The translations under genes were made by a program, and so were the position numbers. From the NCBI GenBank assembly GCA_027026255.1, contig JALVOT010000006.1:62001-126000 (forward strand): a stretch of 64,000 nt of DNA, given 5' to 3'. How positions within the stretch are numbered: position 1 is the stretch's first letter; every line of letters starts with the position of its first letter. The notes under the pieces were generated by a model. The model ran no database searches, was not told the origin of the DNA, and saw only the letters and a list, made by a program, of their open reading frames with translations. Source of the DNA: Caldifarciminota bacterium. Its GTDB lineage: Bacteria; Hydrothermota; Tepidihabitantia; SM23-42. Positions 127-10,757 of the stretch are shown here, piece after piece.

Positions 127-1584
127 TTAATTAGTGCCTGGTTTATTAAGGTGATCAAAGGCGTTAGGATTTATTTCACATATTGAAACATAAAGTTGTA
201 GCATTTCCTCATAAAAATATTTTGCAAATTGGCAATTAAATCGTTTTTTAGCTATATCTACACGGTGGTTATGTACTACATGCATGTGGCACATATCACA
301 AAGTCTTATTAACCAACAATCGTAACAATCAATATATTGCGCTTTCCTGAATTGGTTCATCACATCAAGCACTTTTTTTACATCTACCCCATTTTCTATT
401 GTTCCAATTTGCATATTCTCATTTCCATCTGTTTTTTCGCAAACAAATAATCTGCCCGCTGTATCTACAAAAAGCTTCCTTGCGCTTGGAATACATATCA
501 GTCTTCTTATAATATTTGATCTATTAAGAGGACTCGTGTCTCGATAATGAATTCTTTTCATGAAAGTTTCAAAAAGGTTATAAACGAATGGGTTACTATC
601 TTTCTTAACTACCTCCCGACTACACTTTTCATAGTAAATTTTTTTCATTTCTTCCCAACCATTGACTTCTGCAGATTTAATATTCTGTATCAAAGTTGAA
701 CCAAAGGATTCAACCCACCGGCACATACATGTTAGTTTGGTCTCCGAAAAAAATGATTTTAATATACAGTAATCAACAGGAGGAGATAGAACGGCATTGC
801 ATATTAATGAATTTCTATAATATTCTTCCGAAAGTTCTCGAATCATTTGTATGTTTCTCCAAACTATATCAAATGTACCCTTGCCACTTTCTTTCAAAAC
901 GCGATTACGATCGTGTATTTCTTTAGGGCCATCAAGACTTATAATTAATGTAATATTATTGTCTATCAGGAGTTCAATAATTTTCTTATTTAAAAGACTC
1001 CCGTTTGTTGTAATAGAATATTGTAGTGTATTATTCTGGCTACCATATTTTTGAATAATGGAGCGTATCAGGCCCCAGCGAAGTAGAGGTTCACCGCCGT
1101 AGAAACTTACCACTCTTGGACGCGTTTGTTTCTGGGAATGATTAAGCAGGTATTCGACCGCTTTTCTTGCAATAGATAAAGACATATTTTTCAAGGAATG
1201 TTTTCTATAATGTTCAAATGACTCTGAATAAATGCAATATTTACATCTAAAATTACACTGCTCTGTTATCCCAAGGGTAATCGAATTCATTTTTGAAGAT
1301 ATCAGTTCATTTACTTCATCTTCATTCCATAAGTAATCATATTCATACCGAGAAATACTCTGAAAGAATCCTAAATTATTAAGTTTATCAATAGTACTTA
1401 AACAGTTTTCGAGTAAATGACTTTCAAATTGCGTAGAGTATTTGCTAAGAAATTCAGTTTTGGAAAGAGAAGACACAGAATCTATAACTTCAAAAAGTGG
1501 TTCACTTACTCGGACAAATTTATTCATTGAAGGTGAATATAGATATTTTTTACCGCTATACGATATTATTTTCTTATAAAACAT
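127..1584 (-). CDS. Radical SAM/SPASM peptide maturase
   Basis: Likely modifies the small Cys/Gly-rich peptide encoded 57 nt upstream, making this a RiPP maturase (inference from position). About 110 N-terminal residues come before the radical SAM core. They probably form a peptide-binding region. The [4Fe-4S]-SAM motif CNFRCKYC (C110, C114, C117) is followed by the SAM-binding stretch FYGGEPLL. The C-terminal Cys-rich part (CEKTDGN..., then CYDCWLIRLCDMC) fits a SPASM/twitch domain carrying auxiliary iron-sulfur clusters. An in-frame TTG lies 15 nt upstream, but ATG at 1584 is chosen because GGAGGT sits at normal spacing before it. The protein is 485 aa. No exporter or protease gene is adjacent. 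The chemistry (thioether, cyclophane or other) cannot be read from the sequence. Confidence 0.85.
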   Translation of the reverse strand: MFYKKIISYSGKKYLYSPSMNKFVRVSEPLFEVIDSVSSLSKTEFLSKYSTQFESHLLENCLSTIDKLNNLGFFQSISRYEYDYLWNEDEVNELISSKMNSITLGITEQCNFRCKYCIYSESFEHYRKHSLKNMSLSIARKAVEYLLNHSQKQTRPRVVSFYGGEPLLRWGLIRSIIQKYGSQNNTLQYSITTNGSLLNKKIIELLIDNNITLIISLDGPKEIHDRNRVLKESGKGTFDIVWRNIQMIRELSEEYYRNSLICNAVLSPPVDYCILKSFFSETKLTCMCRWVESFGSTLIQNIKSAEVNGWEEMKKIYYEKCSREVVKKDSNPFVYNLFETFMKRIHYRDTSPLNRSNIIRRLICIPSARKLFVDTAGRLFVCEKTDGNENMQIGTIENGVDVKKVLDVMNQFRKAQYIDCYDCWLIRLCDMCHMHVVHNHRVDIAKKRFNCQFAKYFYEEMLQLYVSICEINPNAFDHLNKPGTN

Positions 1585-1599
1585 ATATGTTACCTCCAA

Positions 1600-1639
1600 A
1601 AATCAAGTGGGGAGACAAAAATGCCTCCCCACTTGATTT
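1600..1639 (-). promoter_or_regulatory. Intercistronic hairpin between peptide and maturase
   Basis: The 15-base arms 1600-1614 and 1625-1639 are perfect complements around a 10-nt loop. On the minus-strand transcript the hairpin begins 2 nt after the peptide stop codon. A short U-run follows it, and then the maturase ribosome binding site. This layout fits a leaky terminator or an RNA-stabilising processing site that keeps peptide mRNA in excess over maturase mRNA. The structure is read directly; the role is inferred. Confidence 0.75.
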
Positions 1640-1641
1640 AT

Positions 1642-1857
1642 TTATCCAATTAAGCCACCAGCAGCTCCACCGCCCCAACCAGCAACATCGGCAAGAGAGA
1701 CTGGACACTTGCAATCTAAACAAATATCCAAACAATCCAGTGTGCCTCTGGTAGATATCCTTTTGTCTTCTATTTGAGCTTGGAAATTTACAAGCCAAGC
1801 CTGCTCAAGGATGCCGATACCTGGTTCTTGTGGTAGTTTCTTTTTCTTCTCATCCAT
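1642..1857 (-). CDS. Cys/Gly-rich RiPP precursor peptide (71 aa)
   Basis: Small peptide with ATG at 1857, preceded by GGAGG with 6-nt spacing. Residues 1-40 are charged and leader-like (MDEKKKKLPQEP..., including ILEQAWLVNFQAQIEDKR). Residues 41-51 hold four cysteines (DCLDICLDCKC; C42, C46, C49, C51), and the tail is GWGGGAAGGLIG. A Cys-dense segment plus Gly-rich tail immediately before a radical SAM/SPASM gene is the usual layout of a RiPP precursor. I cannot match it to a named precursor family. The mature product, cleavage point and activity are unknown. No promoter is evident directly upstream, so it may be transcribed with the cas-like genes. Confidence 0.75.
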   Translation of the reverse strand: MDEKKKKLPQEPGIGILEQAWLVNFQAQIEDKRISTRGTLDCLDICLDCKCPVSLADVAGWGGGAAGGLIG

Positions 1858-1902
1858 TTTTTACCTCCTTTTTTTTCTTTTTTTATCTTTTTTATTAGAA
1901 GA

Positions 1903-2017: not shown

Positions 2018-2932
2018 TTACACCTCAATTTTAACATTTACTTTACCACCACCTCTACTTTTTTGCCCTCCTAATAATTTTATATTCTCTATAGCAGGAA
2101 TCATAACTTTCTCAATTAGAGTTTTTGTTCTTTTTGTTTTATCCTTTTCATCCCAGTATTCTAACCATTTATCAATTACTTTATTTCCAAGTTTTCTTGC
2201 ATCACCAAACTGTATCCCCTGCATTTCCAGTATTGGTTCAAAAATTACGATGCTAATACTACCGCTAAATACCGTTCCCGGTTTTACCTGTTCACCATCA
2301 ACTTTTGCACGAGCGGCTGCAGTTCCTATTTTCCTATCGATTCTTATATTTGTTTGATCTATTACGCTACCTTCGCTCTCAGGGTAAAAGTTGCTAAATC
2401 TCAGGAATCCCATAAGCCCTGTAGTTCCCATAAAGTAACATACGGGACAAATGCCAATCTTCTGATCGTTTATTTCGGGAATCAAAATATTTTTGTCATC
2501 AACACTGATTTGGCATCCAGAAATTTCTTTTTTTCCTAGTTTCGCTTTTTTCCTGTATTTTCCTAAGTTGATTAATTCTTCCTCAGCTTTAGATGGGTCG
2601 GGAGATGGAATACAGGGATTTAACAAGTCTTTCTTATCATCAGGTATGTTGAATATCTTGGTAAATTCATCAGCCTTTTCTATGAATAACAATTCTAATT
2701 GATGTCTTAAGGCTCCCTTAAAACTGGTTGCAGGTATAACTGGAATTCGATCCACTTTGAATATGGCACCTTTTTTCTCCGTCAATGGCGAAGGGGCAGC
2801 ACCTATGTGTAGAAAACTTCCTTCTGCAACTTCTATCTTCACGGGCAGTTCCAAAATCTTAATTTTTCCTTCTTCTTTAAATGCAATCTCTTTTGTCTGT
2901 CCATTTATTTCCCGACTTATTTTTTCGCTCAT
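2018..2932 (-). CDS. Csm3-like Cas7 RAMP protein of a type III effector
   Basis: Backbone subunit that would bind crRNA in a type III complex. RAMP features are PATSFKGALRHQLE in the N-terminal third, the Csm3-type Zn-binding and glycine stretch CPVCYFMGTTGLMGFLRFSN, RIDRKIGTAAARAK, and a C-terminal Gly-rich loop GGQKSRGGGKV. The target-RNA-cutting Asp that Csm3 and Cmr4 carry before the S/T-FKG motif is not obvious here (the region reads APSPLTEKKGAIF), so backbone RNase activity may be absent. ATG at 2932 with GGAGGTGA is preferred over an in-frame TTG 15 nt upstream, giving 304 aa. It overlaps the previous gene by ATGA. It is the only Cas7-type gene visible. Confidence 0.85.
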   Translation of the reverse strand: MSEKISREINGQTKEIAFKEEGKIKILELPVKIEVAEGSFLHIGAAPSPLTEKKGAIFKVDRIPVIPATSFKGALRHQLELLFIEKADEFTKIFNIPDDKKDLLNPCIPSPDPSKAEEELINLGKYRKKAKLGKKEISGCQISVDDKNILIPEINDQKIGICPVCYFMGTTGLMGFLRFSNFYPESEGSVIDQTNIRIDRKIGTAAARAKVDGEQVKPGTVFSGSISIVIFEPILEMQGIQFGDARKLGNKVIDKWLEYWDEKDKTKRTKTLIEKVMIPAIENIKLLGGQKSRGGGKVNVKIEV

Positions 2933-3513
2933 TCTATCACCTCCCAATATTTTGTTAGCGAGTTTAATTTTCTTACAAAATAAGCTATCTCTTCAGGAGA
3001 GATTCCAGATATGTAAAGCTCTTTTACGTATTCAAGAACCCTCTCTAACGCTCTATTCTGAGGATAAGAAGTTCTCTTTATTTTATCTACGAAATACTGC
3101 TCAACCGTTGTGATGTTATATCTCTCAATCACCTTACCATAACTGTCCATGTTTGGCAATTTGCACTCTACAAGACCACACCATTCAAGATTTTCAAATA
3201 ATTGTTTTAAAAGATATGGTTTATTATCGAATGCTGATTTTAGCCACTCCCCTCGTTTTTTCAGCTCGTTAATTTTCTCTCGCCGCCAACTATTAGTTCT
3301 TTGTTCTTGATTCTCTATTTCTCTAATTCTACTATCAACTTTACTTATAAACTCGTCTCTTTTGCCTTCATTAAATAACCTTCCCAACTCTTTCCAACTA
3401 TCTTTCTCAAAAAGTTTTGGAATATTATCTCTTTTATTCCTGTCATACGGACTATTGAATATGTCTCTATCATTAAGAACTTTCTTAAATACTTCATCCA
3501 TTTTACTCGTCAT
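2929..3513 (-). CDS. Small helical protein in cas operon (possible Cas11-like)
   Basis: This 194-aa protein is charged and mainly helical by composition, with many E/K/R heptad-like segments and no motif I can assign. It sits between the two RAMP genes. Small-subunit genes (Cas11: Csm2, Cmr5) occupy comparable positions in type III operons, so a small-subunit role is plausible, but this rests on position and composition only. ATG at 3513 has an upstream GGAGGTGA. It overlaps the previous gene's stop region by 11 nt and the next gene by ATGA. No transmembrane segment is seen. Confidence 0.6.
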   Translation of the reverse strand: MTSKMDEVFKKVLNDRDIFNSPYDRNKRDNIPKLFEKDSWKELGRLFNEGKRDEFISKVDSRIREIENQEQRTNSWRREKINELKKRGEWLKSAFDNKPYLLKQLFENLEWCGLVECKLPNMDSYGKVIERYNITTVEQYFVDKIKRTSYPQNRALERVLEYVKELYISGISPEEIAYFVRKLNSLTKYWEVIE

Positions 3514-4129
3514 AATATGTCACCTCCTTTAATAAAACTTCAGGGGTTTTAACCAGACTGCCAGGAAATAGTGCCCTTTTGTATGTTCCACCTATTGAAA
3601 AACTGTCTGGTTGGAAGAGGTATCCATAAATCGGAGATATTCGTTCAATTCCAAAATATTCAGCCTCTCCTTCAAACACCTTAACCTTTAAAATTCCCTG
3701 TTTTATCTCTGATTCAATCTCCTTCACTTCAACTATTTTTGATTTTCCAAATCCTTTGCTTTTCAGAGCGCCAAGTTGGAACTCCGTATTTTTTAGCTTA
3801 TCTTTTAAGTTATCTCCTTTGTAAAAAGGGATATACACTTTCGCTTTGATTTTTTCACTTATTGGTCTTAGATATGTAGTAATTATGGGCATTTTTGAAA
3901 TATTAAAAAACTTATCCTTGACAGAATATGTAAATTCATCAAATTTGTAGGTATTTTCTTCAAAAAATCCAACAGCAGGAACTTCAATACCAAAATAATG
4001 TTTTAATGCTCCCTCAATAGTGGAAGAAGGAATAGTATTCTGGCAGGGTCTGAATATACCACCCTTAACTCTCTCTCCTATGATTACGGAGTCTATTTCA
4101 AGTTTTAACTCCAGCAACTCTTTATTCAT
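3503..4129 (-). CDS. RAMP protein (Cas5/Csm4/Cmr3-like)
   Basis: Probable crRNA 5'-handle-binding RAMP subunit. It has an N-terminal ferredoxin-like segment (LELKLEIDSVIIGERVKGG), a tract IPSSTIEGALKHYFG resembling the RAMP S/T-FKGALR motif, and a glycine-rich loop LGALKSKGFGKSKI. The C-terminal part GYLFQPDSFSIGGTYKRALFPGS is not assigned. At 208 aa it is shorter than usual Csm4 or Cmr3. ATG at 4129 is preferred to an in-frame GTG at 4135. It overlaps the Cas10-like stop by 8 nt, indicating translational coupling. Confidence 0.75.
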   Translation of the reverse strand: MNKELLELKLEIDSVIIGERVKGGIFRPCQNTIPSSTIEGALKHYFGIEVPAVGFFEENTYKFDEFTYSVKDKFFNISKMPIITTYLRPISEKIKAKVYIPFYKGDNLKDKLKNTEFQLGALKSKGFGKSKIVEVKEIESEIKQGILKVKVFEGEAEYFGIERISPIYGYLFQPDSFSIGGTYKRALFPGSLVKTPEVLLKEVTYYDE

Positions 4130-6119
4130 ATTCACTACCTCTTAAAAGCCTGTATAGGTTTAAGAATTTTGATGGCTTTATTCCTTCTGAAAACAACTCG
4201 TAAATTTTGGAATATCTCTCTCTATTATTGAATATCTCAACAGAAATATGAATTTCGGATTGAAGGCTCTCTCCTAACTGAACAAGTTTATACAAGAATG
4301 AACTTGAAGTTTCCACGTTGAGAGCTTTCTCAATGATAACATCCAATTCATCTTTCGTATATTTCTCAGTGAATACTTTATGATAATGCACATTAAGAAA
4401 ACTCTTGTTATTTTCCTCAAAAAAATTCCAGTGATCTCTTATAGGATATTTAATATTAGCAATGGACAACGATATGCTTATAGGAGAATTCTCATTACTA
4501 ATGCAGTCTGAAAAATATTTGCTGAATACAGTACTGAAAGTATCTATAACTTTTTTTGTTAATTCTGGGGAGTATTTGAATACGCCCAGCTCATCGTACC
4601 CAGGAATAGGCTTTTTAATATCATCAACTCTGCTAAACTCTCTCCAGAACTCTTTTAACATTTCTCTGTAATCTTTGTTAAAATCTACTTGTAAAGCAAG
4701 AGATCTAAACTCTTCTTTCAGAACATTTGCTTGTATGAAATTGTACTGGTCAATATATTCTTCAAATGATTTTTGCAACCATTTTTCCAGTTTGTTCTGA
4801 TTTAGAGAGAACTTAAACCAGCAGACTTTAGTCCCCTCTTCTTCCCATACAGTTGCATATTCTCTGAAGGGCTCACCCATGTCTCTTATTTCCTGACACT
4901 TCTCACATATCCACTCTCTTATATTCTCTTTTATTCGTTCTACACCCTGCTTTTGCTGGCATATATCACATATGGGGGGGTATATTTCTTCTGGAAGTTC
5001 AGGCATAAGATATCTCTTATATACTTTAGTAGCCCGATTGGTAAGAACACTTAATCTTGCTTGCTCATTTGTTTGCCTTGCTTGCAGAGTTTTTCTATCC
5101 AGTATCGAGTTTAATATTCCCAAATCGGCTAAGGTTTCCTCTGTTTCTATATAAAAGCCCCAGACAAGAAAAGGTTTGAGTATCTCCTTTAAATCCTGAT
5201 TTGATGGAAGAAAGAATGTAATAAAATCTGAAGTAGCGAATATAACCTCATCTTCGTAATTACCAACAATCAAATCTATGATTTCCTCCCTCTTTCTGAG
5301 AAGGTTTATGTCCTGTAACCTAACGAAGGAGTGGGGGAATTTTATCCTGCATTTTACTAACCTTGCCGGCCATTTGCCCTTGTTTGTATCATTCGTCCCA
5401 GTTGTTCTTTTACCTCCTTCAGCTTCTTTTATTGTTTTTACTTTTATTCCGTTATATTCAATTGCTATTGAACCATCGGCTTCTATAACTATCTCTGTGT
5501 TTTTCTCAAGAACTCTGTATATTTTGCCTGCCAGTTCAACATGCGTATAAAGAGTGGTTACATTCCTCGGAATAGATTTATCTTCAGGTGTTAGCATAAG
5601 ATGTTCCCTATACTTATTCAGAAATTTACTCCCAGATTGGCAATTCTGAATTTCATTAAATAGTGTTTTTAAGTCATTAACAATTTTGAATGCTGCCCAA
5701 TATTTCCCATTTTGCGCTTTATTTTGGTAAAAATCCCTGTTCCATAGTTTTAAAACTCCGGGTTGTTGACTCTGTATCTTTCCCAATTCCAAAGTTGCCC
5801 TGGATACCGACGAAGCCAAATGGTCAGCAATTATTAACAAAAAGAGATGATATTTATCCACAGGTGAAGTAATGTTCCCAAGACTATCTCGTAAATTCCA
5901 CTGGTTTATATCTTTGTTTAATTCTGAGATTTCATGATGATATTGTCCCCACCAGGAGGAAGAAGCTGGTTGCGGGATTCCAGACTTTTGAAAATCAAAT
6001 TTAACAAAGACATGCCCTTTCCACGATTGTCCGATTTGATTTTGTAATTGAACTTTAACCTGATCATCAACTAATTTACCTATATCGTGTAGTTCCGGAA
6101 TGAATTTTTTATTGGTCAT
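4122..6119 (-). CDS. cas10: Cas10-like large subunit with HD motif, no visible GGDD
   Basis: Large subunit of a type III CRISPR effector, 665 aa. The N-terminal HD-nuclease signature is HDIGK (H11, D12), then YHHE (H61/H62) and ADHLAS (D99, H100). A central Zn finger CDICQ...CEKCQ (C384, C387, C405, C408) matches the Cas10 treble-clef. The palm-like regions (EVIFATSDFITFF; PISISLSIANIKYP) lack a GGDD-type cyclase motif, so cyclic oligoadenylate synthesis is not expected. An HD-active, cyclase-inactive Cas10 with a single Cas7 recalls derived subtypes such as III-C or III-F. The subtype is inferred. ATG follows GGAGGT. The gene heads a four-gene overlapping operon behind its own promoter at 6259-6286. 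Confidence 0.85.
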   Translation of the reverse strand: MTNKKFIPELHDIGKLVDDQVKVQLQNQIGQSWKGHVFVKFDFQKSGIPQPASSSWWGQYHHEISELNKDINQWNLRDSLGNITSPVDKYHLFLLIIADHLASSVSRATLELGKIQSQQPGVLKLWNRDFYQNKAQNGKYWAAFKIVNDLKTLFNEIQNCQSGSKFLNKYREHLMLTPEDKSIPRNVTTLYTHVELAGKIYRVLEKNTEIVIEADGSIAIEYNGIKVKTIKEAEGGKRTTGTNDTNKGKWPARLVKCRIKFPHSFVRLQDINLLRKREEIIDLIVGNYEDEVIFATSDFITFFLPSNQDLKEILKPFLVWGFYIETEETLADLGILNSILDRKTLQARQTNEQARLSVLTNRATKVYKRYLMPELPEEIYPPICDICQQKQGVERIKENIREWICEKCQEIRDMGEPFREYATVWEEEGTKVCWFKFSLNQNKLEKWLQKSFEEYIDQYNFIQANVLKEEFRSLALQVDFNKDYREMLKEFWREFSRVDDIKKPIPGYDELGVFKYSPELTKKVIDTFSTVFSKYFSDCISNENSPISISLSIANIKYPIRDHWNFFEENNKSFLNVHYHKVFTEKYTKDELDVIIEKALNVETSSSFLYKLVQLGESLQSEIHISVEIFNNRERYSKIYELFSEGIKPSKFLNLYRLLRGSEYE

Positions 6120-6286: not shown

Positions 6287-6318
6287 TGCCCGATTTAAAA
6301 AGAGGCAGTCCTATGCTT

Positions 6319-6360
6319 AAATCTTAGCATATAAGTTGATTTCCACTTCGTAAGGAGCAA
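6319..6360. repeat. Dispersed hairpin repeat, copy 2 (degenerate right arm)
   Basis: AAATCTT (6319-6325), five variable bases, ATAAGTTGATTTCCACTTCG and a decayed right arm (AAGGAGCAA instead of AAGTGGAA). Same orientation as the other copies. It stands immediately upstream of the cas-like promoter, so copies 1 and 2 enclose the whole RiPP plus cas-like block. Confidence 0.8.
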
Positions 6361-6459: not shown

Positions 6460-6984
6460 TTATAAAAAAGGTATTTTCTCTTTGAGTGTCAGTATAAACA
6501 ACCCATATCTTGAATATTCAAATTTCTCTTTTTTACAATTTTTATATATGACTAAGGTTGGAAAACTTGATTCGTTAAAATCATAATTTTCTAAGCTGTC
6601 ATGTAAGTCTTTTCCTTCCGGATGATGGTAATCAATGATGAAAAAAAGTTTATCTTTATTGGTTTTTGCAAGACCGATAAAGTATTCTTTTACATAAATA
6701 CATGGAATACAATATTTGCTACAATAAGCAACAGTCATGGGAGTCTTGGATTTTATGCGGGCAATAAGTTTTTTCCAGCTGTCACCTTTCGGCTGCCTTA
6801 CAATATACAGATTTGAATAGGGGTAATTTTTTATTAAGTCATTATTATATTGGATTTGTTGTTCTAAATTTCTTTTTGCTATTGGCGATTCGTTAAGATA
6901 ATCTATGAACTTTGGAGTTAGTGCTAATAATATCGCCAATCCAATTCCTGCCCCTATTATGAACAAAATTCGATTGATTTTTAT
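6460..6984 (-). CDS. Membrane-anchored thioredoxin-like protein, probable ATA start
   Basis: Redox protein facing the periplasm. The N-terminus (MKINRILFIIGAGIGLAILL if ATA initiates) is a single signal anchor. It is followed by a thioredoxin fold with YCSKYCIPCIYVKEYF, where CIPC is the CxxC pair, and the cis-Pro region SSFPTLVIYKNCKKEKF...YG. No ATG lies near the 5' end. An AGGAGG at 6989-6994 is 4 nt before an ATA codon at 6982-6984. The other choice is TTG at 6966, which lacks a spaced Shine-Dalgarno and would cut off the basic N-terminus of the anchor. Length is 174 aa from ATA or 168 from TTG. Substrate unknown; the disulfide-prone RiPP core nearby is only a positional hint. Confidence 0.75.
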   Translation of the reverse strand: MKINRILFIIGAGIGLAILLALTPKFIDYLNESPIAKRNLEQQIQYNNDLIKNYPYSNLYIVRQPKGDSWKKLIARIKSKTPMTVAYCSKYCIPCIYVKEYFIGLAKTNKDKLFFIIDYHHPEGKDLHDSLENYDFNESSFPTLVIYKNCKKEKFEYSRYGLFILTLKEKIPFL

Positions 6985-7763: not shown

Positions 7764-7772
7764 GAGGTGAAT

Positions 7773-8909
7773 ATGAAATTTAGAAAGAACAAAGAAAAGA
7801 AATTATGGCTACCACCGAGGGTAGAATCTACTCCGGCAAGCTATCTCTTGTCTATGCCGCAATATTCACCCCGGGAAATCAATGAAAAACTGAGCGAGCT
7901 GGGCTACTTTGGTCAGGAGCAGGCACGTCGCGCTGTTTGTCTATGTGCATATCAGCACATAAAGCGTTTGCAAAGAATATATCTGGACAAAATACCTGAG
8001 TATACGCTTCCGAAACGCACCAATATGTTGTTAATGGGACCAACCGGGTGTGGTAAGACTTATCTTATTGAACTTCTGTTTGGGAAGATACTGAGGATTC
8101 CTTATGTAATTGTAGAGATGACCAGGTTCACAGAAGTCGGGTATGTTGGTGATAATGTAGATAATATTATCAATCAGTTGATTGATGGGGCACACGGATG
8201 CGTTGACATTGCTGAGTGTGGAGTCGCTGTTCTTGATGAGTTTGACAAGATAGCAGCGGGTAGTGGTAATATCCGGTTTGGTGGTGGTTCATTTAAAAAT
8301 GTTTCGGGTAGGGGTGTACAGCGCGAACTTTTGAAGATGCTTGAAGGTGCGGATATTTGTGTATCCCCTGAATATTTCTTGAGATTCAGTAATACACGGA
8401 ATATGATATCTACGCGCAATATCACTTTTATTGCAATGGGTGCTTTTAGCGGTTTCCAGGAAGATGGATTTGGCATTAAGAATGTGGGTTTTAACCGGCA
8501 AATCAAAAACCAACACCGGATTGCATATAGGTTGAACAAAAATAATACTGATGATTTAATGAATTTCTACTCATACGGATTCCTACCAGAATTGATTGCA
8601 CGGTTCACACATATTGTTCCTTTACAACCCTTAGATGCAAAAACGCTTATGATGATTCTAAACAAAAAAATAAAGGATTACCAGAATGAATTCAGGTATG
8701 AAGGATTTAATCTTGAGATTGATATGAGTGTGCGTAAGACAATTGTTGAGGCAGCACTTATGCGTCAAACCGGGGCGCGCGGTCTTGATAACTCACTTGT
8801 TCAACACCTGCAGAATATCGGTTTTGAATATTTCGGCCGGCATAAAACCGGAAGGGTATTGTTGAAAATCAGAAAAGGTAAGCTGCATACCCGGGTCAAG
8901 GTTTCTTGA
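7773..8909 (+). CDS. Orphan ClpX/HslU-like AAA+ ATPase
   Basis: A 378-aa hexameric unfoldase-type ATPase. Walker A is GPTGCGKT (89-96), Walker B VAVLDEFD (151-158), and the ClpX/HslU signature RFTEVGYVGDNVDNIINQLI lies between them. RGVQRELLKMLEG and the sensor-2 region GARGLDNSL follow. The N-terminal Zn domain of ClpX is missing and replaced by about 35 unrelated residues (KKLWLPPRVESTPASYLLSM). No ClpP or HslV gene is in the window, so it may be a stand-alone remodeller. ATG at 7773 is preferred to an in-frame GTG at 7767 because AGGAGG lies 5 nt before it. The gene is divergent from the XRE repressor and next to a YD-repeat-like gene. Confidence 0.85.
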   Translation: MKFRKNKEKKLWLPPRVESTPASYLLSMPQYSPREINEKLSELGYFGQEQARRAVCLCAYQHIKRLQRIYLDKIPEYTLPKRTNMLLMGPTGCGKTYLIELLFGKILRIPYVIVEMTRFTEVGYVGDNVDNIINQLIDGAHGCVDIAECGVAVLDEFDKIAAGSGNIRFGGGSFKNVSGRGVQRELLKMLEGADICVSPEYFLRFSNTRNMISTRNITFIAMGAFSGFQEDGFGIKNVGFNRQIKNQHRIAYRLNKNNTDDLMNFYSYGFLPELIARFTHIVPLQPLDAKTLMMILNKKIKDYQNEFRYEGFNLEIDMSVRKTIVEAALMRQTGARGLDNSLVQHLQNIGFEYFGRHKTGRVLLKIRKGKLHTRVKVS

Positions 8910-9869: not shown

Positions 9870-9879
9870 ATGTGCGCTC

Positions 9880-9926
9880 AAATCTTCGTATGTAAGTTGA
9901 TTTCCACTTCGTAAGTGGAAGGTGAT
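9880..9926. repeat. Dispersed hairpin repeat, copy 3
   Basis: AAATCTT (9880-9886), five bases, GTAAGTTGA, the perfect hairpin TTCCACTTCGTAAGTGGAA (9902-9920) and GGTGAT. It matches copy 1 except in the 5-nt variable part. It marks the left border of the zincin block. Confidence 0.85.
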
Positions 9927-10600: not shown

Positions 10601-10615
10601 TGCCGACCTGGGCTT

Positions 10616-10660
10616 GAATTTTCGTAATATAAATGATTTCCACTTCGTAAGTGGAAGATG
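10616..10660. repeat. Dispersed hairpin repeat, copy 4 (diverged flanks)
   Basis: The perfect hairpin TTCCACTTCGTAAGTGGAA lies at 10638-10656. The flanks are related but diverged (GAATTTT for AAATCTT, ATAAATGAT for GTAAGTTGAT). It lies upstream of the zincin promoter, matching the place of copy 2 upstream of the cas10 promoter. Confidence 0.8.
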
Positions 10661-10757
10661 AATCCTTGGATTTTCATAAAAATCCCGTTTTTTTTCTGTA
10701 TACCACAAATCTCTCAGAAAATCAAGGCAAAAAGTGTAAAATCAGCGCAGGCCAGGG

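Follow-up and report, generated by a model that had tools for sequence, protein, structure and literature searches.

In the radical SAM/SPASM class of RiPPs, the maturase cleaves SAM, abstracts a hydrogen and forms a bond to a Cys sulfur near an auxiliary cluster; as a class, radical SAM/SPASM enzymes also catalyse C-C cyclophane formation and epimerisation. Several described systems stand close to the locus presented here. In the CcpM/CLI_3235 system (TIGR04068, TIGR04065), a short Cys-rich peptide is encoded just upstream of the maturase, and the relatives of the CcpM type have CxC-rich cores and polar tails. The SCIFF peptides have CteB as their maturase (TIGR03974, PDB 5wgg; we take this structure to be CteB), and the ranthipeptides of PapB (NF047865) bear interleaved Cys and Asp residues in the core. 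Ruminococcin C, the product of RumMC (NF035951), has four Cys, paired in two hairpins. In the type I hairpin sactipeptides (thuricin CD, thurincin H), a Cys arm is followed by an acceptor arm rich in small residues; the known hairpin sactipeptides have been reviewed in an article that also prints the SPASM spacing of RumMC (PMC8172795).

The stretch of DNA analysed here (the window, 64,000 nt) corresponds to positions 62001-126000 of contig 6 in a 2.1-Mb genome that is 99% complete. Near its beginning, the minus strand carries a two-gene unit, in which a short gap separates a 71-aa precursor ORF (1857 to 1642) from the downstream maturase ORF, which ends at 127; a GGAGG stands a few bases ahead of each gene (Table 1). 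Very probably, these genes encode a Cys-rich peptide and a radical enzyme tying it into sulfur-bridged rings. A previous sequence-only reading had described a 71-aa peptide with four Cys in DCLDICLDCKC and a GWGGGAAGGLIG end, directly before a CX3CX2C/SPASM enzyme, and the ORFs and ribosome sites confirm this description. The four Cys occupy positions 42, 46, 49 and 51, and of the window's eight ORFs of 30-120 aa that are led by GGAGG, only the precursor ORF has four Cys within 12 residues. For the maturase, the ATG at 1584 is preferred over the listed TTG at 1599 because of the position of the GGAGG at 1593-1597.

Table 1. Features of the precursor-maturase locus and of the adjacent CRISPR effector set (coordinates of the window)
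Feature	Position	Strand	Basis
Precursor peptide gene, 71 aa, TAA stop	1642..1857	-	ORF and ribosome site; no family match
Ribosome-binding site of the precursor, GGAGG	1864..1868	-	Sequence
Leader, residues 1-40 (Lys-rich start, AQIED, TRG)	1738..1857	-	AQI[ED]D and T[RK]G also in the L025 precursor; boundary putative
Cys cluster, residues 41-51 DCLDICLDCKC, predicted cross-link donors	1705..1737	-	Sequence
Tail, residues 52-71 PVSLADVAGWGGGAAGGLIG, predicted cross-link acceptors	1645..1704	-	0.55 Gly+Ala, rank 2 among 38 precursors
Strong intergenic RNA hairpin, probably an attenuator	1600..1639	-	Inverted repeat and folding
Ribosome-binding site of the maturase, GGAGG	1593..1597	-	Sequence
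Radical SAM/SPASM maturase, 485 aa (490 aa from the mechanical TTG start at 1599)	127..1584	-	ORF, profiles, model, motifs
N-terminal domain b-b-b-a-a-a, probably leader-binding, RRE-like	1375..1584	-	Predicted secondary structure; function putative
CX3CX2C motif, Cys 110/114/117 (485-aa numbering)	1234..1257	-	Sequence
SPASM Cys set 364/382/420/423/429/432/451	232..495	-	Sequence and alignment
Type III-F CRISPR effector set Cas7f, Cas11f, Cas5f, Cas10f	2018-6119	-	PADLOC; upstream of precursor

The larger gene product is a radical SAM/SPASM maturase by its CX3CX2C motif, its Radical_SAM domain (63.3 bits, gathering threshold 29.5) and its set of seven SPASM Cys spaced CX12GX4CX37CX2CX5CX2CX18C. 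In an alignment of 59 sequences, the window enzyme included, both the CX3CX2C motif and the seven SPASM Cys are fully or almost fully conserved. The predicted structure (mean pLDDT 91.6) starts with three strands and three helices, and the solved structure closest to it, PDB 5wgg (E 3.2e-22), is also the closest by sequence. PADLOC offered only viperin models for this protein (59 bits); they matched over the radical SAM core, which fits the core common to both enzymes. No match to the maturase was found in viral contigs.

When compared to the curated families, the maturase scored best against CcpM (TIGR04068), reaching 303.6 bits vs. a cut-off of 500, followed by RumMC (NF035951, 216.8 vs. 720), lachnocin (NF038170, 203.2 vs. 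550), PapB (NF047865, 164 vs. 340) and SCIFF (TIGR03974, 122 vs. 425). Assignment to any of these five families was rejected, as every cut-off was missed. The tests of the CcpM type can be passed: the maturase of a CcpM-type relative, L032, reaches 548.7 with TIGR04068, and the precursors of L032, L041 and L048 match TIGR04065 at 28.8-33.1 (cut-off 26). The likeness to the CcpM/CLI_3235 system lies in the best maturase score, the short Cys-rich peptide just upstream and an intergenic hairpin seen in several loci, whereas the window precursor does not match TIGR04065 and differs from the CxC-rich cores and polar tails in relatives of that type. With RumMC, the enzyme shares a nearly equal SPASM spacing and the peptide shares the number of Cys, but here they form one cluster. 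Just as in the type I hairpin sactipeptides, the Cys arm precedes an arm rich in small residues; however, the Cys spacing is 4,3,2, the acceptors would be mostly Gly and Ala, and an alpha linkage is merely putative. The interleaving of Cys and Asp is reminiscent of the PapB substrates, yet the window core has no CX3D. CteB provides the closest solved fold, although the precursor is unlike SCIFF.

The sequence-only reading had placed the precursor of this radical SAM RiPP pair outside the recognised families, and the profile searches bear this out: there was no match in NCBIfam, Pfam or PHROGs. Furthermore, searches of its own genome and of 199 related genomes returned only the peptide itself. 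No homologue was found on plasmids, nor in viral contigs with either the peptide or a two-row alignment with its L025 counterpart (see below) as a query. Literature searches, which cannot query sequences, brought up no paper on the peptide. We regard the precursor as a real undescribed family within a known kind of system.

A neighbourhood comparison had been proposed as a check; related maturases lacking a conserved Cys/Gly peptide upstream would speak against the pair. Relatives of the maturase were collected from 100 related genomes (12 with E <= 1e-40, own included), from 147 genomes of the same phylum (8 with E <= 1e-58, own included) and from a genome contig collection (the best 80 of 582 relatives). 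This gave 93 loci, or 87 after removal of six duplicates, and flanks of 650 nt on either side were available for 78 of them. An ORF of 30-120 aa that is led by a ribosome site and contains three or more Cys was found upstream of the maturase in 37 of the 78 loci and downstream in 14, vs. two and none, respectively, on the opposite strand. The rest had no Cys-rich ORF by this rule, and a few of the hits (e.g., L042, L057, L070, L076) are likely chance ORFs. The comparison thus did not refute the pair. Among the collected loci, six from the same phylum (L003, L005, L006, L007, L008, L011) and one from Gemmatimonadota (L019) encode peptides with a short leader bearing W-G or W-S, followed by a CxC-rich core; none of them reaches an NCBIfam cut-off, and they look like another unnamed precursor family. 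In a genome of the Aminicenantes phylum (L118:1-3362), two tandem Cys-rich precursors stand ahead of a CcpM-like maturase.

In the window precursor, the stretch after the Cys cluster is the second highest of 38 precursors both in Gly+Ala content and in the summed content of Gly, Ala, Ser, Val, Leu and Ile (0.85). The other eight precursors highest in Gly+Ala (at least 0.30) belong to L067, L052, L063, L025, L097, L077, L014 and L089. All of these loci but L025 fall into one maturase clade (SH-aLRT 97) in a quick tree of 89 rows, which leaves out the six duplicates and L071 with its odd 759-aa frame; the part of this clade included in a careful tree of 40 rows is supported there at 100/99. Four other members, L012, L054, L086 and L094, have lower Gly+Ala values. 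The window maturase itself stands beside this clade in the 40-row tree (88/47) and with L025 and L038 in the 89-row tree (SH-aLRT 84), neither position being firm. The order of a Cys arm and a Gly/Ala arm is the layout of hairpin sactipeptides, so the arrangement of the precursor points to a sactipeptide-like hairpin, which the tree does not contradict or prove. The Cys spacing of 4,3,2, vs. 4,4,4 in L063 and L089, and the offer of mostly Gly and Ala as acceptors count against the hairpin.

One distant relative of the window precursor was found in Bacteroidales AS08sgBPME_89 (L025), whose precursor scored highest against it among 3138 small ORFs of the gathered loci. This score was reached by 2 of 2000 whole shuffles and by 16 of 2000 shuffles that keep the composition of leader and core. 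Aligned end to end, the two peptides are 32% identical over 79 columns, sharing AQI.D, T.G..DC and AGG, or AQI[E/D]D...T[R/K]G..DC...AGG as a joint motif; GGAGG precedes the L025 precursor as well. They are likely members of one small family. Constraining the window and L025 maturases to be sisters raised the fit by 4.57 log units over that of the free tree; the two trees are indistinguishable (p-AU 0.574), so kinship is allowed but not proven, and a firm tree position for the window maturase was rejected as unproven. A two-row profile gave four matches in 395 genomes of the L025 phylum, one being L025's own; the other three, which contain stops or are fragments, were rejected. The L025 maturase was its own only match when 393 genomes of its order were searched for closer relatives.

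Between the two genes, an 18-nt inverted repeat (1600-1617/1622-1639) folds into a hairpin of -30.8 kcal/mol (z -8.19), and none of 200 shuffles was as stable. Across 36 loci with precursors picked by eye, of which the window is one, the stretch of 70 nt starting at the precursor stop folds at z <= -2 in 19 cases and does not in 17, vs. 0 of 36 for control stretches taken about 100 nt upstream. The L025 locus also has a strong hairpin 3′ of its precursor (z -5.91). Most likely, the hairpin lets more precursor than enzyme be made. Upstream of the precursor, the stretch 1895-2016 was checked as a structured RNA (z -1.63 for a slightly longer stretch, with 14 of 200 shuffles as good) and had no Rfam match, the only one in the window being a tRNA; a repeat search gave a single partial match of 36 nt at another place in the genome, and nothing was made of this stretch.

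From these data, we infer the following course of maturation. The charged leader would be bound by the N-terminal domain of the maturase, and SAM cleaved at the CX3CX2C cluster, the resulting radical taking hydrogen from acceptors in the Gly/Ala-rich tail (residues 52-71). The four Cys thiols (residues 42, 46, 49 and 51), which are probably positioned at an auxiliary SPASM cluster, would close up to four thioether bridges, with a mass loss of 2 Da per bridge and 8 Da in all. The preferred topology would be that of sactipeptides, a hairpin in which the N-terminal arm carries the Cys and the C-terminal arm the acceptors. Leader removal and export may be ensured by genes elsewhere, and the product might act against competitors or as a signalling peptide. 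On balance, a minimal two-gene unit making a thioether-bridged RiPP, preferably with this N-terminal-Cys-arm hairpin, explains the locus best, although no transporter or peptidase was seen among the neighbouring genes. The shifting position of the enzyme between the two trees and the lack of a close precursor homologue in the genomes, viral contigs and plasmids searched also count against it. The product itself is most likely a thioether-bridged RiPP, the carbon position and the Cys pairing not being readable from the sequence. The suggestion of the sequence-only reading that the ring chemistry may be new was not borne out: known kinds of thioether cross-link are what the family of the enzyme, its CteB-like fold and the Cys/Gly-Ala layout shared with a clade of relatives point to, and chemistry new in kind is improbable.

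The product could instead be a ranthipeptide, as with PapB, in which the thiols are attached at a beta- or gamma-carbon; the likeliest partners would be the Asp residues of the cluster (C42-x-D44, C46-x-D48, C51-x5-D57). That PapB is among the better-scoring maturase families and CteB the nearest solved fold argues for such linkages, as does the reported acceptance by PapB of Cys-Xn-Asp with n of 0-6 (PMC9413430); Asp-Cys motifs have also been reported in radical SAM clusters left unassigned (PMC9062424). However, the PapB cut-off was missed, the core lacks CX3D/E, the L025 core has no Asp after Cys, and the Gly/Ala tail would be left without a role, so we regard a ranthipeptide as a serious but rather unlikely alternative to the hairpin. 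Doubtful, in turn, is the proposal that the window and L025 precursors are the founding pair of a thioether RiPP family not described before, recognisable by the leader-core joint AQI[E/D]D...T[R/K]G..DC, where an Asp-Cys-rich cluster is bridged to the Gly/Ala-rich tail in an undescribed ring topology, for instance, with several glycine alpha-carbons as acceptors or with Cys-Asp and hairpin bridges combined. The enzyme might also install another modification, such as a C-C cyclophane at the single Trp of the tail or an epimerisation, both established for its class, leaving the Cys for disulfides or metal binding. Yet the top-scoring families act on Cys-rich peptides, Cys-rich ORFs are the common feature of the relatives, and the aligned tails have no conserved Trp, which makes this improbable.

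A link to the neighbouring type III-F set was weighed as well, in which the pair would be an accessory effector of the CRISPR module within one repeat-bounded cassette. The pair lies on the same strand, 160 nt after Cas7f, both stand between near-identical 38-nt repeats (61-98 and 6317-6354), and the region is rich in defence genes. In G039, another member of the phylum, the type III-F genes lie near a CRISPR array, but this locus (L110) has no adjoining radical SAM gene among its listed ORFs of at least 100 aa, inspected by eye, and the genome no maturase match at 1e-40. Moreover, the III-F systems covered by one survey are reported to lack cyclase motifs and effectors (PMC11229360), and the Cas10 here has HD and none of the listed cyclase motifs. 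We therefore take the pair and the III-F set to share a location and not a function, an effector role being very improbable; probably, the pair sits beside the set in a defence island by co-location. Neither the window nor the 20 kb preceding it (L015) yielded a CRISPR array.

The 38-nt repeat, which bounds gene modules of the island and may mark cassette ends, occurs at 61-98, 6317-6354, 9878-9915, 10609-10673 and L015:18652. The genome has six copies within three mismatches, four of them within 11.3 kb here, and 13 occurrences of the hairpin core TTTCCACTTCGTAAGTGGAA (none in the read-backwards control). Upstream of the window, beyond the maturase, PADLOC detected a type I methyltransferase, an AbiU-like protein, a UG21 reverse transcriptase and a PDC-S01 ATPase (L015:7044-19999), and some 240 nt are present there in two diverged copies (10606 and 16017). 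Just outside the repeat-bounded module lies a gene (6460-6966, minus strand) whose product weakly resembles thioredoxin, bears a CIPC motif and has a hydrophobic N-terminus. A ClpX-like AAA+ protein (7767-8909, plus strand) scores 224 bits where the ClpX cut-off is 359, matches the profile only from position 60 and apparently has no N-terminal zinc domain.

Peptides of this sort easily stay without a name in annotation, as the scores of the enzyme and its closest relatives fall short of the curated cut-offs. Should the prediction be true, the locus would provide a substrate-enzyme pair for asking how a single SPASM enzyme selects several acceptors along a Gly/Ala tail with hardly any features, and cross-linked peptides would be added to the predictions for an uncultivated phylum.
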